NCBI RefSeq assembly: GCF_003399445.1
Contig: NZ_QUQO01000001.1
Coordinates: 1,237,001 to 1,301,000 of the forward strand
Length of the DNA: 64,000 bases
From: Parvularcula marina
GTDB lineage: Bacteria; Pseudomonadota; Alphaproteobacteria; Caulobacterales; Parvularculaceae
Direction: 5' to 3'
Part shown: positions 23,186-29,328 of the stretch, piece by piece
Numbering within the stretch: position 1 is the first letter of the stretch
Layout of the letters: each line of letters begins with the position of its first letter
Program-made: the position numbers and the translations under genes
Notes under the pieces: model-generated
What the model saw: the letters and a program-made list of their open reading frames with translations, nothing else
Told to the model about the DNA's origin: nothing
Database searches by the model: none

Positions 23186-23707
23186 TTATTGCTCGGTAAA
23201 GGCGCGTTGAAGTGCCGCCAGACGGCCCTTCGCATCCCCTTCAATGTCGTCAACTGACGCGGTCACGAAGAGATCGCAGTCGAGACGACGGATCCGCGAG
23301 TAAAGCGTGTCCGTCTCGCCGATCAGCTCGACAAGCTGCTCAGGCAGCACATCAAGATCATGTGGCGTGCGATCAACGCTTTCGGCCGGGCCGATACGGT
23401 ATTTCTCGTCGCGAGCCTCGTCCTCGGTCATCTCACCGTCGCGCACGGCGCGCAGGACAAGCAGCCAGGATGCAATCTGCATCAGGCGGGTGGTCAGGCG
23501 CATGGAGACGCCTGCATAGGTCATCGCATCGTCACGGCTCAGTTCTTTGGCAGCCTGACGGCCTCCATTATCGAGATAGCCGGCGGTCTCTTCAACGAGT
23601 TCCATTCCGTGTGCGAAAAGATTGGTAAAGACCTTTGAGCGGACGAATGGCTGCAGCCTGCCGCCATATTCCGTTCCACTAGCCCGATCAGCGCCTACGA
23701 CCGTCAT
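23186..23707 (-). CDS. rcdA: DUF1465 protein, RcdA (CtrA-degradation factor)
   Basis: In Caulobacter, RcdA is an adaptor in the ClpXP-CpdR-PopA hierarchy that helps destroy the cell-cycle regulator CtrA at the G1-S transition. The 173-residue protein is helical and matches the family over FTNLFAHGMELVEETAGYLD, the SRDDAMTYAGVSMRLTTRL segment and the MQIASWLLVLRAVRDGEMT segment, which are the most conserved parts of DUF1465. The C-terminal tail is acidic and less conserved. It converges with the RND pump gene, four bases apart. The role in this organism is inferred from the family. Confidence 0.87.
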   Translation of the reverse strand: MTVVGADRASGTEYGGRLQPFVRSKVFTNLFAHGMELVEETAGYLDNGGRQAAKELSRDDAMTYAGVSMRLTTRLMQIASWLLVLRAVRDGEMTEDEARDEKYRIGPAESVDRTPHDLDVLPEQLVELIGETDTLYSRIRRLDCDLFVTASVDDIEGDAKGRLAALQRAFTEQ

Positions 23708-24072
23708 TCATCGTCCCCTTGGTCCTGCCCAGACCCCTCACTCGTATCATAACGGTCTGAGGCGGTCCCGTATACTGTTGTTTTCACAGCCGGTATCAGC
23801 AACCGCTGTGCCAGCAACCGGCGGGCGAACTCTTCTCCCTTCAAGCGCCGGGAAGTAGCCTTCCACTCCCTCTAGCGCGAATTCAGGCGAGACCCGTGCG
23901 GCGCAGGTTGCGCCATGGTGCCCATTATGACGCACCGGCCTCGACCGAATAGCCGGAATAGGATTCCGCTTTTCGCCGTCGGAGCGAGAGCACGCCGGAT
24001 GAGATGAAATCACAACCCCCGTTCGGGGGGCTTTGCCAAGGTCTAATCTGACCTCTTCCCGGAATGAGTCAT
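23708..24072. other. 365-base intergenic region upstream of rcdA
   Basis: Holds the rcdA promoter region and the downstream end of the PstS-like gene. One GANTC site is present (GATTC, 23962-23966) and a GC-rich hairpin lies at 24014-24032. Possible reading frames here have poor coding quality, and I see no tRNA or repeat. Confidence 0.5.
24014..24032 (-). terminator. Probable terminator after the PstS-like gene
   Basis: CCCCC-GTTC-GGGGG forms a compact stem with a four-base loop about 40 bases past the stop of the leftward PstS-like gene. In the leftward direction the stem is followed by TTGTGATTTC, a weak T-rich stretch, so termination may be partial. Confidence 0.45.
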
Positions 24073-25368
24073 CTAGTGGCCGGAGGGCGAGTGGTGGCTC
24101 TCAGTTTCATGATGCCCCGCCTCTTCATGATGCTCGGCCGGTTCCTCATGAGTGGTCGTCTCATGCTGAGCTTCTTCTTCATGATGGCTGGCTTGTTCAT
24201 GATGAGAGGCAGCCATCACTTTTGCAGATTCACCGTGTCCGCCCGAATTCAGCCGCGCTGCTGGCAGAGGCGGCGTCTCATGATGGTCATTCCCATGTGA
24301 TGCCGCTGCCTGATGTTCATCGCCGTGATGCCCTTCTCCATGCCCGGAGGCTGGTGCTTTCTTGGGAGCAGGACGACCTTTGCGCGTATCGATTTCCATC
24401 TCTGGGCTTGCATGGCCAGTCGTCACAAGACCCATCTCGGTCAGAAAGCCCCCCGGCCCGATCGCACCAAAGCTGCCAAATGCCCTGTAGATCTCAGCCA
24501 CAGGGTGATCCCCTTCGAAAGACCTTTTATCCGCGTAGAGATATAATCCGCGGCTTAACTCATACTCACCTGACGCAATCGTCTCAACGGTTGGCTCGAC
24601 ACCATCCAGCGGGATCGCCTCGATGTCCTTGACATCAACAAGATAGGCATAACCGAATATACCGATGGCATCGCGGACATAGCGCAGAGTCTGGGCAACC
24701 GCCTCATCCTGTTCACCGCCATCGACCCAATGACTGTCGAGCCGGATCTTCGTTGCCTTGGCAAAATAATCAGGGCTCGAATGCTCGATCGCCGCAAGGC
24801 AGTGGAAACTGCGCGCGCCGACCGCCACAGCCTTTTCAAGAAAAACATCCCGTGTGCCGGAACTACGCGGCGGGCCGATCACAATGATCTCGCGATCCGG
24901 CAAGTCGGAGCGGACATCTTTCCATTTGACCTTGTTGTTCTTGACCAGAACACAATCATCCTCAGCACGAGGAATATAATTCGCCGTCGCCAGATAGAGA
25001 TCTCGAACGGTCAGCTCGAGGTCTTTTGCTTTGACCGATTGCGCCAGCACGATGCCGTCGCGGCCGATCGGCTTTTCAACCAGTGTCTCAATCCCGTTGG
25101 CGGCACAGCGCTCAATCTCTCTGGGCTTGATCGGCCGAGACGAAGCGGCAATCTGGGGGGAAAGCGGCCTGCCGCTGCAAAGCCGCGCAATGCCGGTCCC
25201 GCTGCCATTCTGGACCACGGTCAACATTTCAGGATGACGCAAGAGCCGTGTCATCGCTCGCGCATAGGGCGCGATGGTCGAAGACCCCTCCATCGTCACC
25301 TGATCCTGAGAACTGATCGGTGACGGAGACGTCAGAAGCGCAGCAGCGGCGAGGAGGAGCAAATTCAT
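24073..25368 (-). CDS. PstS-like phosphate-family binding protein with His-rich C-terminal tail
   Basis: A 431-residue secreted protein. A signal peptide (about 1-20) precedes a PBP-like domain to about residue 320, with the PstS-style ligand loops GSSTIAPYA (28-36), NGSGTGI (54-60) and RSSGTRDVF (168-176). The remaining tail, 341-431, is low complexity with 21 histidines among 91 residues, mostly HH pairs between Glu, Ala, Ser and Thr. It is likely a metal-binding tail (zinc, copper, nickel or cobalt). The gene starts inside the stop of the upstream hybrid kinase (ATGA, four-base overlap), so both are made together. There is no pstCAB or phoU nearby, which argues for sensing or sequestration instead of transport. 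Ligand unknown. Confidence 0.85.
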   Translation of the reverse strand: MNLLLLAAAALLTSPSPISSQDQVTMEGSSTIAPYARAMTRLLRHPEMLTVVQNGSGTGIARLCSGRPLSPQIAASSRPIKPREIERCAANGIETLVEKPIGRDGIVLAQSVKAKDLELTVRDLYLATANYIPRAEDDCVLVKNNKVKWKDVRSDLPDREIIVIGPPRSSGTRDVFLEKAVAVGARSFHCLAAIEHSSPDYFAKATKIRLDSHWVDGGEQDEAVAQTLRYVRDAIGIFGYAYLVDVKDIEAIPLDGVEPTVETIASGEYELSRGLYLYADKRSFEGDHPVAEIYRAFGSFGAIGPGGFLTEMGLVTTGHASPEMEIDTRKGRPAPKKAPASGHGEGHHGDEHQAAASHGNDHHETPPLPAARLNSGGHGESAKVMAASHHEQASHHEEEAQHETTTHEEPAEHHEEAGHHETESHHSPSGH

Positions 25369-27335
25369 GCCGCCTTCTCCGTTTCGACATCACGGCGGCG
25401 GACCCATTTTTCAGCACAGCGCTGGATGACTTCCTTACGAACAGGTTTGTTCAGGATGTCGTTAAAGCCAACCTCTCCGAGACCGGACCATTCCCCCGGT
25501 CCCACATGCGCCGTCAGCGCGATGATCGGGGTTTCGCGGTTCGGCCCGTCACTCTGACGGATCATCTGCGTTGCCTTCACGCCGTCCATGACGGGCATGG
25601 AGATATCCATGAGGATGAGGTCAAACTGCTTCTCATTCGCCGCATCGACGGCCTGTCGGCCATCGGCCGCCATTTCCGTCCGTGCCCCAAGCGGTTTGAC
25701 GAGCGCCTCGGCGACCATCCGGTTCGCCATATTGTCATCAACAATGAGCACATCGAAGCCGCCCGCTGGTAGCGTCTCGGCTTTCTCTTTTTTTTCTTCG
25801 GTCGTCGGCTCGCCAGCTTCAGTGGTAGCGACGGCATCCCCATCTTCTTCGGTCTCTTCAACGGATGTTTCAGAAACTGCCGCCTCCGCCTTGGGCTTCA
25901 TGCTTTCAGCGGATTTCTTCATCGGCAGGCTGAGCGTGAAGGTACTGCCTTCGCCTTCAACCGATGTCACATCGATCGATCCGCCCATGCTTGAGGCAAT
26001 GGCGCGCACAAGCGCCAGACCGACCCCCAGACCGCCATTGCGTGACAGCATGGAGGTATGAACAACCGCCTGCTCGAAGATGGTTTCAAGATCTTCTTCA
26101 GGAATACCGACACCGGTGTCTTTTACGCATAAAGAAAATTCAGTCTTCGGACCTTCGTCATCATCGATGATCTTCGCATCGATAGTGACCTCGCCTTCAT
26201 TCGTGAACTTAACGGCATTATCAACAAGGTTGGTGATAACCTGTTCAAGGCGTTGCGCATCACCTTCTACAATACAGTCGTCGTCGATTTCGATATGTGC
26301 CTTGAAGTCAATGCCTTTGGCCTCGGCAAGGGACATAATGCGCTTCAGCGGACGCTCAACGGCCTCACGCAGCGCAAAGTCCCGCTCATCGAGCGCAAGG
26401 TGGCCATCAGACAATCTGTGCGTATCAAGAATATTATTGAGAAGATTGAGAAGCTGGTCGCTCGCTGCGATGATTTGCTCAAGCTCAACATCGAGCCCCA
26501 GATCGCCCTTTTCCTTGATCGCATCCGTCATGCCGACAATGGCATTCAGCGGCGTTTTCAGCTCATGTGAGGCGGCCTGAAAGAAATGCCCTTTGGCTTC
26601 TTTCGCTTCATTAGCTGCATGCTCGGCTTCACTCGCCACAGTCTGGGCGTCTTCCATCTCGGTCACGGCTTTAAGGACGTGACGGACCAGCGGACGGAAG
26701 ATCAGCAAGGTAATGAGCGCGATCAGGGCAAGCGTTGCAAGCCACGCAATAATGCCCATCCCCTTCTCGACACTGTTCATCCGAATGGCTTGCGCCTCAA
26801 GGATCAGGCTCATCAACGCATGGGTCTGAAGGATGTTATCCTTGGCCGCGGTGATGACCTCTTCGCGCATACCTGCGGAAGCGGCCCATTCTTCGGTTCC
26901 GTAATCGAGCCGGGAGATATCCGAGGCTTGTTCGAGAAAATACCGCACACGGATGTCAAACGGCGTCTCGCCGGACATGTAGATTTCATGCAATGGCGCA
27001 ATGAACCGAGAGATCCTCGCGCTTTCCGAAGACGCACCGACCAGAATGTCGTGATTGCTGCGCATGCGGGAAATCGTCATCCGCATTTCTTCAAAATAGC
27101 TCTCGATCTCGACCGGATCGTCAGACGTCTCGATACTGGTGATCAGAAACGCGATCCGTTGGGAATCGGTCTGCTGGGCGCTGATCAGGGTAAATGCGAT
27201 GGCCCGGTTCGTGTCCATCATGGACAGCCGATAATTGAGCCCGAATGAGGCGCATGCCGCAGCTGCAAGCAATGCGATTGCGATTGCATAACGCAGATTG
27301 AAGATGCGGCGGAGTTTTTCCGTGGCCGTGGTCAT
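25365..27335 (-). CDS. Hybrid sensor histidine kinase with C-terminal receiver
   Basis: A 656-residue membrane sensor. TM1 (about 16-35) and TM2 (about 193-215) bracket a periplasmic helical domain starting with SAQQTDSQRIAFL, reminiscent of PilJ-type or NarX-type four-helix sensors. Then come a coiled signalling helix, HisKA with phospho-His257 in AASHELKTPLNAI, HATPase (Asn373, DTGVGIPEEDLETIFEQ, GLGVGLALVRAI), an acidic Thr/Glu linker (about 475-525) and a receiver with Asp533-Asp534, phosphoacceptor Asp577, Thr608 and Lys630. No DNA-binding domain is attached or adjacent, so output must pass to an Hpt protein elsewhere. It is coupled to the PstS-like gene, and its promoter shares the 139-base gap with a divergent quinone oxidoreductase. 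Confidence 0.93.
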   Translation of the reverse strand: MTTATEKLRRIFNLRYAIAIALLAAAACASFGLNYRLSMMDTNRAIAFTLISAQQTDSQRIAFLITSIETSDDPVEIESYFEEMRMTISRMRSNHDILVGASSESARISRFIAPLHEIYMSGETPFDIRVRYFLEQASDISRLDYGTEEWAASAGMREEVITAAKDNILQTHALMSLILEAQAIRMNSVEKGMGIIAWLATLALIALITLLIFRPLVRHVLKAVTEMEDAQTVASEAEHAANEAKEAKGHFFQAASHELKTPLNAIVGMTDAIKEKGDLGLDVELEQIIAASDQLLNLLNNILDTHRLSDGHLALDERDFALREAVERPLKRIMSLAEAKGIDFKAHIEIDDDCIVEGDAQRLEQVITNLVDNAVKFTNEGEVTIDAKIIDDDEGPKTEFSLCVKDTGVGIPEEDLETIFEQAVVHTSMLSRNGGLGVGLALVRAIASSMGGSIDVTSVEGEGSTFTLSLPMKKSAESMKPKAEAAVSETSVEETEEDGDAVATTEAGEPTTEEKKEKAETLPAGGFDVLIVDDNMANRMVAEALVKPLGARTEMAADGRQAVDAANEKQFDLILMDISMPVMDGVKATQMIRQSDGPNRETPIIALTAHVGPGEWSGLGEVGFNDILNKPVRKEVIQRCAEKWVRRRDVETEKAA

Positions 27336-28440: not shown

Positions 28441-28631
28441 TCGGGAGACACAAGGCGCGGCAATGGCTTGCAGGACGGGCCGCGGATGCGTATGTGACCC
28501 GCCAAGGTTTCGCGCCTATTCCCCGACAAGACGAGGCAGACGCGACGCCGGTCCCCGGAAGACGGGGGCCGCGGCCGTCGAGTTATTGCATCGTGACCAT
28601 TGGGGCAGACGCGCGTTAGCAAAGAAAATTT

Positions 28632-28643
28632 GAGGAGCTCCTC
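28632..28643 (+). promoter_or_regulatory. Palindromic ribosome-binding site of trcR
   Basis: The Shine-Dalgarno GAGGAG before the trcR ATG is the left half of a perfect 12-base palindrome, GAGGAGCTCCTC, which ends one base before the start codon. Self-pairing in the mRNA can only be short-range or intermolecular, so any regulatory effect is speculative. Confidence 0.5.
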
Positions 28644-28644
28644 C

Positions 28645-29328
28645 ATGTCCGACCGTCCCCTGATGCCGAAAGCGACCGCTGTCTGGCTCATCGATAACAC
28701 TGCTCTCAGCTTCGATCAGATCGCGGATTTCTGCGGTCTGCACTCGCTTGAGGTCAAAGGCATCGCGGATGGCGATGTTGCCGCCGGCGTGCGCGGGATC
28801 GATCCGATCAGCCAGCACCAGCTGACCCGCGAGGAAATCGAAAAGGGTGAGAAGGACGAAGACTATCGGATGAAGCTCTCGAAGCCGAAAACGATCGTCG
28901 CCGCGCCGAAGAAGAAAGCCCCGCGCTACACGCCGCTGTCGCGCCGTCAGGAGCGCCCGAACGCAATCGCCTGGATCGTCCGCAACCACCCCGAAGTGCC
29001 GGACAGCCAGATCGCCAAACTGCTGGGCACGACAAAGACCACGATTCAGGCCATCCGTGACAAGTCACACTGGAACTCTTCGAACCTCGAGCCGCAGGAT
29101 CCGGTCGCGCTCGGCCTGTGTAGCCAGTTCGATCTCGACATGGCGGTCTCCAAGGCTTCTGAGAAACGCGCAGCCATGGAAGCGGCCGGCAAGATCGACG
29201 AAGGCGCCCGCCTCGCCCCTGCCGCCGAAACCGAAAAGGCCGACGAGGACGAGCGGAGCAATGCGGCCCCGGATATCGACAAGATCTTCGCAAACTTCGG
29301 TGGCGGCGGCGATTCAGACAACGACTGA
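28645..29328 (+). CDS. trcR: DUF1013 protein, cell-cycle transcriptional regulator TrcR
   Basis: An alphaproteobacterial DNA-binding regulator; the family (DUF1013) has been named TrcR and linked to Caulobacter cell-cycle transcription. The 227-residue protein has two helix-turn-helix-like parts: LMPKATAVWLIDNTALSFDQIADFCGLH-type N-terminus (about 5-35) and NAIAWIVRNHPEVPDSQIAKLLGTTKTTIQAIRD-type core (about 112-150), both quoted here only as landmarks IADFCGLH and IAKLLGTTKTTI. The C-terminal 60 residues are acidic, Ala-rich and end with a DIDKIFANF motif followed by Gly/Asp. Start at 28645 follows GAGGAG. It stands alone. Confidence 0.85.
   Translation: MSDRPLMPKATAVWLIDNTALSFDQIADFCGLHSLEVKGIADGDVAAGVRGIDPISQHQLTREEIEKGEKDEDYRMKLSKPKTIVAAPKKKAPRYTPLSRRQERPNAIAWIVRNHPEVPDSQIAKLLGTTKTTIQAIRDKSHWNSSNLEPQDPVALGLCSQFDLDMAVSKASEKRAAMEAAGKIDEGARLAPAAETEKADEDERSNAAPDIDKIFANFGGGGDSDND

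Follow-up and report, generated by a model that had tools for sequence, protein, structure and literature searches.

AioX (also ArxX and ArrX) is an oxyanion-binding periplasmic protein that is encoded with a sensor kinase and is described as serving sensing, not transport (PMC5908839). In the TorT-TorS and LuxP-LuxQ systems the ligand is captured by a periplasmic binding protein, which in turn influences the sensor kinase, and the sensor of TorS is described as all-helical (PMC8534201). In both structure and phylogeny, TorT and LuxP are presented as separate from AioX (PMC5908839). Bacterial phosphate sensing has been described as running via PstSCAB and PhoU to PhoR, with the transporter as part of the chain. 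A PilJ domain can bind nitrate at an N-box, for which the consensus is given as [IVL]-[ND]-x-A-G-x-Q-R-M-L-[ST]-Q (PMC6381276). Here we describe a gene pair of Parvularcula marina in which a PstS-like binding protein is encoded behind a hybrid kinase with a putatively PilJ-like sensor.

A PstS-like gene overlapping a hybrid kinase gene

The window, the whole stretch of DNA that was analysed (64,000 nucleotides), comes from a genome of 3.40 Mb that is 99.5% complete. The following features are relevant, with positions counted from its first letter.

25365..27335, minus strand: hybrid histidine kinase (656 aa; helical periplasmic sensor, putatively of the PilJ kind, with two hydrophobic segments flanking it, then HisKA, HATPase_c and receiver, and no output domain)
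26760..27230, minus strand: periplasmic sensor region of the kinase (residues about 36-192; N-box position degenerate)
25365..25368, minus strand: ATGA overlap of the kinase stop and the binding-protein start (4 bases)
24073..25368, minus strand: PstS-like periplasmic binding protein (431 aa; signal sequence, PBP domain at about residues 20-330, tail)
24073..24348, minus strand: His/Glu-rich C-terminal tail (residues 341-431 plus the stop; 21 His)
23186..23707, minus strand: DUF1465 protein (PF07323, E 1.6e-52), the nearest recognised downstream gene, on the same strand as the pair

An earlier note on this DNA had reported the two reading frames overlapping by ATGA, two PstS ligand loops, a 91-residue tail with 21 His, a receiver without DNA-binding output and no pst transporter genes nearby. 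All of this was recovered here: the loops are located at residues 28-36 (GSSTIAPYA) and 168-176 (RSSGTRDVF) of the binding protein, the His count is the same, no pst genes were seen near the pair, and Pfam finds HisKA, HATPase_c and one receiver in the kinase and no DNA-binding domain. The binding protein is apparently translationally coupled to the kinase. The 4-base overlap is also present at loci L034, L036, L038, L047, L050 and L052, and the coupling of the two genes goes beyond chance, as they are found together in 14 further genomes.

The binding protein matches PF12849 (E 1.3e-27) and is the only protein in its genome to do so at E <= 0.001. Its closest solved structure by sequence is 9JWY (E 2e-40), the SAR11 protein CpPstS with phosphate. 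The same entry ranks first in the PDB (E 2.6e-27) in a fold search with the AlphaFold2 model, which has block means of at least 90 across residues 21-310. Judged by sequence and predicted structure, the window protein is thus a PstS of the CpPstS branch. CpPstS is reported to hold phosphate by seven residues and to have a Pro where other PstS branches have Arg (PMC12421899). The window protein retains all seven phosphate-contact positions, one of them with a Thr to Ser substitution that is shared by 9 of 11 aligned Pst-linked rows, and has the branch-defining Pro at residue 166. The protein scores below the cut-off of the curated PstS model (TIGR02136; 117.3 bits versus 206.6).

All 11 Pst-linked rows (L037 among them labelled by clade only) keep the complete pocket. 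The 13 kinase-linked rows, window included, comprise eight with 7/7 positions, two with 6/7 and three with eroded pockets (L033 3/7, L038 2/7, L056 4/7); L048, which lies outside the alignment, is missing the GSST loop. These four cases imply that phosphate binding is not essential in every copy, and we consider phosphate a likely ligand for the window copy, though not for every copy. By eye, the N-terminus looks lipoprotein-like in the 11 Pst-linked rows and not in the kinase-linked ones. In the L033 binding protein (L033:5645-7039, genome G057), the degenerate pocket is accompanied by a long tail that is rich in P, A and K and not enriched in His.

In the predicted structure of the kinase, a helical periplasmic region lies between the two hydrophobic segments. 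The PilJ model (PF13675) is matched at E <= 1 by 10 of 15 aligned paired kinases (best 8.4e-7), the window kinase not being among them, and from such matches and the model we take the sensor to be PilJ-like. The sensor profile retrieved nothing credible among solved structures, and the 50 structural matches listed for the kinase model are kinases whose alignments cover chiefly the core and thus give no guidance on the affiliation of the sensor. A review lists KinB as a kinase whose all-helical sensor holds a phosphate ion (PMC8534201), and by that precedent the window kinase might bind an anion without help from the binding protein.

The N-box is degenerate in all paired kinases. The strict motif occurs in 0/15 of them versus 5/20 unpaired receptors, and the core GxQR[ML]L, scored by eye, in 0/15 versus 17/20 unpaired receptors examined, a comparison that is not phylogenetically independent because the paired kinases are one family. 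The 17 receptors that keep the core include paralogues in G051, G054, G014 and G057; the three that do not are L181, L182 and L187. The nearest unpaired kinase (L181:3419-5281, G006) has thus lost the N-box too. The Arg of the QR pair is kept in five paired kinases (L032-L036), replaced by Lys in five more and by Gln in the window kinase, which indicates a modified site and not a uniform loss. Its degeneration in 15/15 paired kinases suggests that recognition was handed over to the binding protein.

Distribution and genomic context of the pair

Matches to the binding protein occur in 25 of 62 Parvularculaceae genomes, that of the window among them. Besides the window copy there are 30 such genes, counting once the gene of G015, which is split by an IS4/5-type transposase gene (PF13340; L057:5476-7328) behind a kinase frame that stays open. 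Fourteen relatives lie directly behind a related kinase, 14 beside pstC and two beside neither in the surrounding DNA (L037, cut by a contig end, and L055). L055:5825-6778 is a second binding-protein copy in G054, which retains 7/7 pocket positions and sits on a very long branch; its 12 kb of surrounding DNA lack a related kinase or pstC.

Kinase and binding protein are therefore adjacent in 15 family genomes, window included, and 11 of these have no PstC over the cut-off; the exceptions are G013, G014, G015 and G021. The L056 kinase (G053) is only weakly related (E 3e-28, from the kinase part only), and G053 has no sensor match at 1e-8 to a profile built without this kinase, yet the locus shares the gene order of the others in the genus. 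In G056, the tenth genus genome, the kinase stands at a contig end, and any partner would lie beyond it.

A survey of named genomes returned 125 relatives. The best 80 of these 125 were kept: 6 have the kinase, 22 lie within about 6 kb of PstC and 52 have neither, and all six kinase-bearing loci are titled Parvularcula, Aquisalinus or Parvularculaceae. A profile of the kinase N-terminus, run against 398 genomes of the order, gave 56 matches spread over 48 of them, namely 14 paired kinases, the G056 kinase and 41 others; 20 of the 41 were checked and none has a relative of the binding protein at E <= 1. Within the scope of these searches, the pair occurs only in Parvularculaceae. The co-sensor pairing suggested by the earlier note is thus conserved. 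The arrangement that it had named as speaking against the pairing, relatives mostly beside pst with the kinase absent, is not what the family shows (14 of 30 with the kinase, 14 with pst); of the best 80 of 125 named-genome loci, however, only the 6 mentioned above have the kinase.

In a tree of 105 binding proteins, a branch with 100/97 support sets 86 rows, among them 33 of the 37 Pst-linked rows, apart from the kinase-linked rows. The other four Pst-linked rows, which are distant, and L055 fall on the kinase-linked side. The kinase-linked rows have long branches and the tree cannot root their group; a single capture would fit this tree but is not proven by it. Across five compared genomes, identity to the window copy is 33-45% for the binding protein versus 55-75% for DUF1465.

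Within the genus, the order QOR, kinase, binding protein, DUF1465 is found in the window and at seven further loci (L033, L034, L035, L038, L048, L052, L056), and L032 shows it cut at a contig end. In L034 and L035 the binding protein and DUF1465 are separated by about 0.9 and 1.5 kb, respectively, that contain further open reading frames. In the window this gap is 365 bases, with a terminator-like hairpin (by eye) at about 24016-24030, and DUF1465 is probably a unit separate from the pair. DUF1465 occurs in 58 of the 62 family genomes and is therefore not tied to the pair. We take it to be the RcdA family; no paper naming both RcdA and DUF1465 was found in the open-licence literature. The cell-cycle regulator TrcR (window 28600-29328) lies on the side opposite DUF1465, one gene away from the pair.

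Phosphorus genes and regulation

None of the ten genus genomes has PstC, PstB or a Na/Pi cotransporter over the cut-off. PhoU is present in all ten, Pit only in the window's own genome and PhnE only in G058. The window's genome also contains a phoR-phoU-phoB-like locus without pst genes (L146:6809-9817, by eye). At the Pst-linked loci L039 and L041, porin-like, PstB-like and PhoU-like genes were seen by eye. Directly behind the pair in three of the 15 genomes (G013, G014, G015; Aquisalinus-type), although not in the window's own genus, lies a gene for a PhoD-like phosphatase:

L057:7431-9107: PhoD-like gene (by Pfam)
L051:2-718: PhoD-like gene (by Pfam)
L050:2-697: PhoD-like gene (by eye)

A Pho box was not found above chance upstream of the kinase at any of the 14 loci with upstream DNA; L032 had no such DNA, and the L056 kinase has an uncertain start. 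Two of six Pst-linked upstream regions tested have a Pho box matched by 0/200 shuffles. Control of the pair by PhoB was consequently dropped as a supporting argument.

We also rejected the idea that the kinase is a PhoR lying beside pstS, given its score of 115.8 bits versus a cut-off of 334.2 for TIGR02966, its PilJ-like sensor and the phoR-phoU-phoB-like locus elsewhere in the genome. The PhoR-beside-pstS arrangement likely exists in other Alphaproteobacteria; a PstC match together with a kinase-core match was found at 16 of the best 80 of 125 named-genome loci.

A proposed phosphate co-sensor, its alternatives and known systems

We propose, and on balance consider probable, that a PstS has been freed from transport and reused as a periplasmic phosphate co-sensor of the hybrid kinase. 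An ancestral phosphate-transport PstS would have separated from PstCAB and become an exported binding protein joined to a PilJ-type kinase. In the periplasm it would bind phosphate, or a similar tetrahedral oxyanion, and dock in its liganded or empty form on the helical sensor bundle of the kinase, in which the small-ligand site (N-box) would have decayed. The kinase would then hand phosphate to its own receiver and on to a phosphotransfer partner. The identity of the ligand as phosphate, a physical contact of the two proteins, and the direction of the signal and its target are all inferred. In a fuller version, which is plausible but which we advance only tentatively, a lineage that had lost the Pst transporter would have kept or regained a PstS and connected it to a hybrid kinase of the PilJ type, the anion site of which had decayed; the result would be a transporter-independent phosphate sensor in which a nitrate-type input has been swapped for a binding protein.

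The binding protein might instead be a genuine kinase partner whose ligand has drifted from phosphate to another oxyanion, an organophosphate or, in some species, nothing, with the fold kept as a docking module. The loss of the pocket in L033, L038, L056 and L048 points this way, the more so as the L033 and L038 kinases are among the three closest to that of the window (46 and 49%), and so does the fast evolution of the kinase-linked copies, visible in their long branches and in their low identity next to DUF1465. CpPstS itself is reported to bind some organophosphates, weakly (PMC12421899). We nevertheless regard such drift as unlikely for the pair, since the window copy and 7 of the 12 other kinase-linked rows retain the whole pocket, two more retain six positions, and PhoD is a neighbour in three genomes. 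The PstS fold and pocket would also suit an ordinary phosphate scavenger or buffer that is regulated by the kinase and has no sensing role. This we hold to be quite improbable, as 11 of the 15 pair genomes have no PstC over the cut-off and the genus has no PstB, no Pho box was found upstream, and the N-box is degenerate in every paired kinase.

The earlier note had read the binding protein as a metal- or metal-plus-anion-responsive co-sensor, or a periplasmic metal buffer, acting through its His-rich tail. Residues 341-431 do contain 21 His and 16 Glu, with 7 HH pairs and no HxH, whereas residues 1-340 contain 6 His, and His-rich stretches can bind transition metals. This tail, however, is present in none of the 30 other relatives across the Parvularculaceae genomes, and a search of the genus with the tail alone returned no real relative (best other E 0.011), only weak low-complexity matches. 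Among the genomes examined it is seen in one species only and is not a conserved segment; as far as these genomes go, this agrees with the confinement to a single strain that the earlier note had named as speaking against its reading. AlphaFold2 predicts it to be disordered (pLDDT < 50 at residues 347-427 and 429-431), and its DNA holds short imperfect repeats. Relatives carry unrelated tails, such as the P/A/K-rich one of L033, so the end of the binding protein appears free to vary. The metal part of that reading is not supported: metal sensing as the core function was rejected because the tail is not conserved among the relatives found, and a metal co-sensor or buffer in any form seems to us very improbable. 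We regard the tail as a species-specific, disordered low-complexity extension, at most a local or incidental metal-binding add-on; the part that first drew attention is the least informative of the system.

The proposed phosphate co-sensor would matter in two ways. If a PstS can signal directly to a kinase and bypass the pump, nature offers a system that keeps phosphate sensing apart from phosphate transport, and the pair would also show a small-ligand receptor ceding recognition to a captured binding protein. Since the N-box core is intact in same-genome PilJ-type paralogues (in some genomes) and degenerate in the paired kinases, the hand-over step is testable by comparison.

Of the described systems, AioX-AioS-AioR resembles the pair in having a periplasmic binding protein encoded beside a sensor kinase. 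AioX is described as PhnD-like in structure, with a response regulator alongside and in arsenic gene clusters (PMC5908839). In contrast, the window protein is PstS-like (PF12849), its kinase is a hybrid, and no regulator gene is seen beside the pair. Unlike TorS and LuxQ, the window kinase falls far below the cut-offs of their models and matches them without their N-terminal halves. PstSCAB-PhoU-PhoR shares the PstS fold and the phosphate pocket, but here there are no transporter genes over the cut-off and the kinase is not PhoR. The sensor recalls PilJ-domain nitrate receptors (McpN, with NarX/NarQ as functional cousins) in its family's PF13675 matches and its helical periplasmic region, yet the N-box is kept in none of the 15 paired kinases. 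We found neither a PstS-family protein acting as a kinase co-sensor nor a paper covering both Parvularcula and PstS in the open-licence literature. The pair is real and conserved and probably forms a two-gene sensor in which a binding protein serves a kinase, and its joining of a PstS to a hybrid kinase of the PilJ type whose N-box has decayed is apparently a new use of these parts, being new in the open-licence literature searched.
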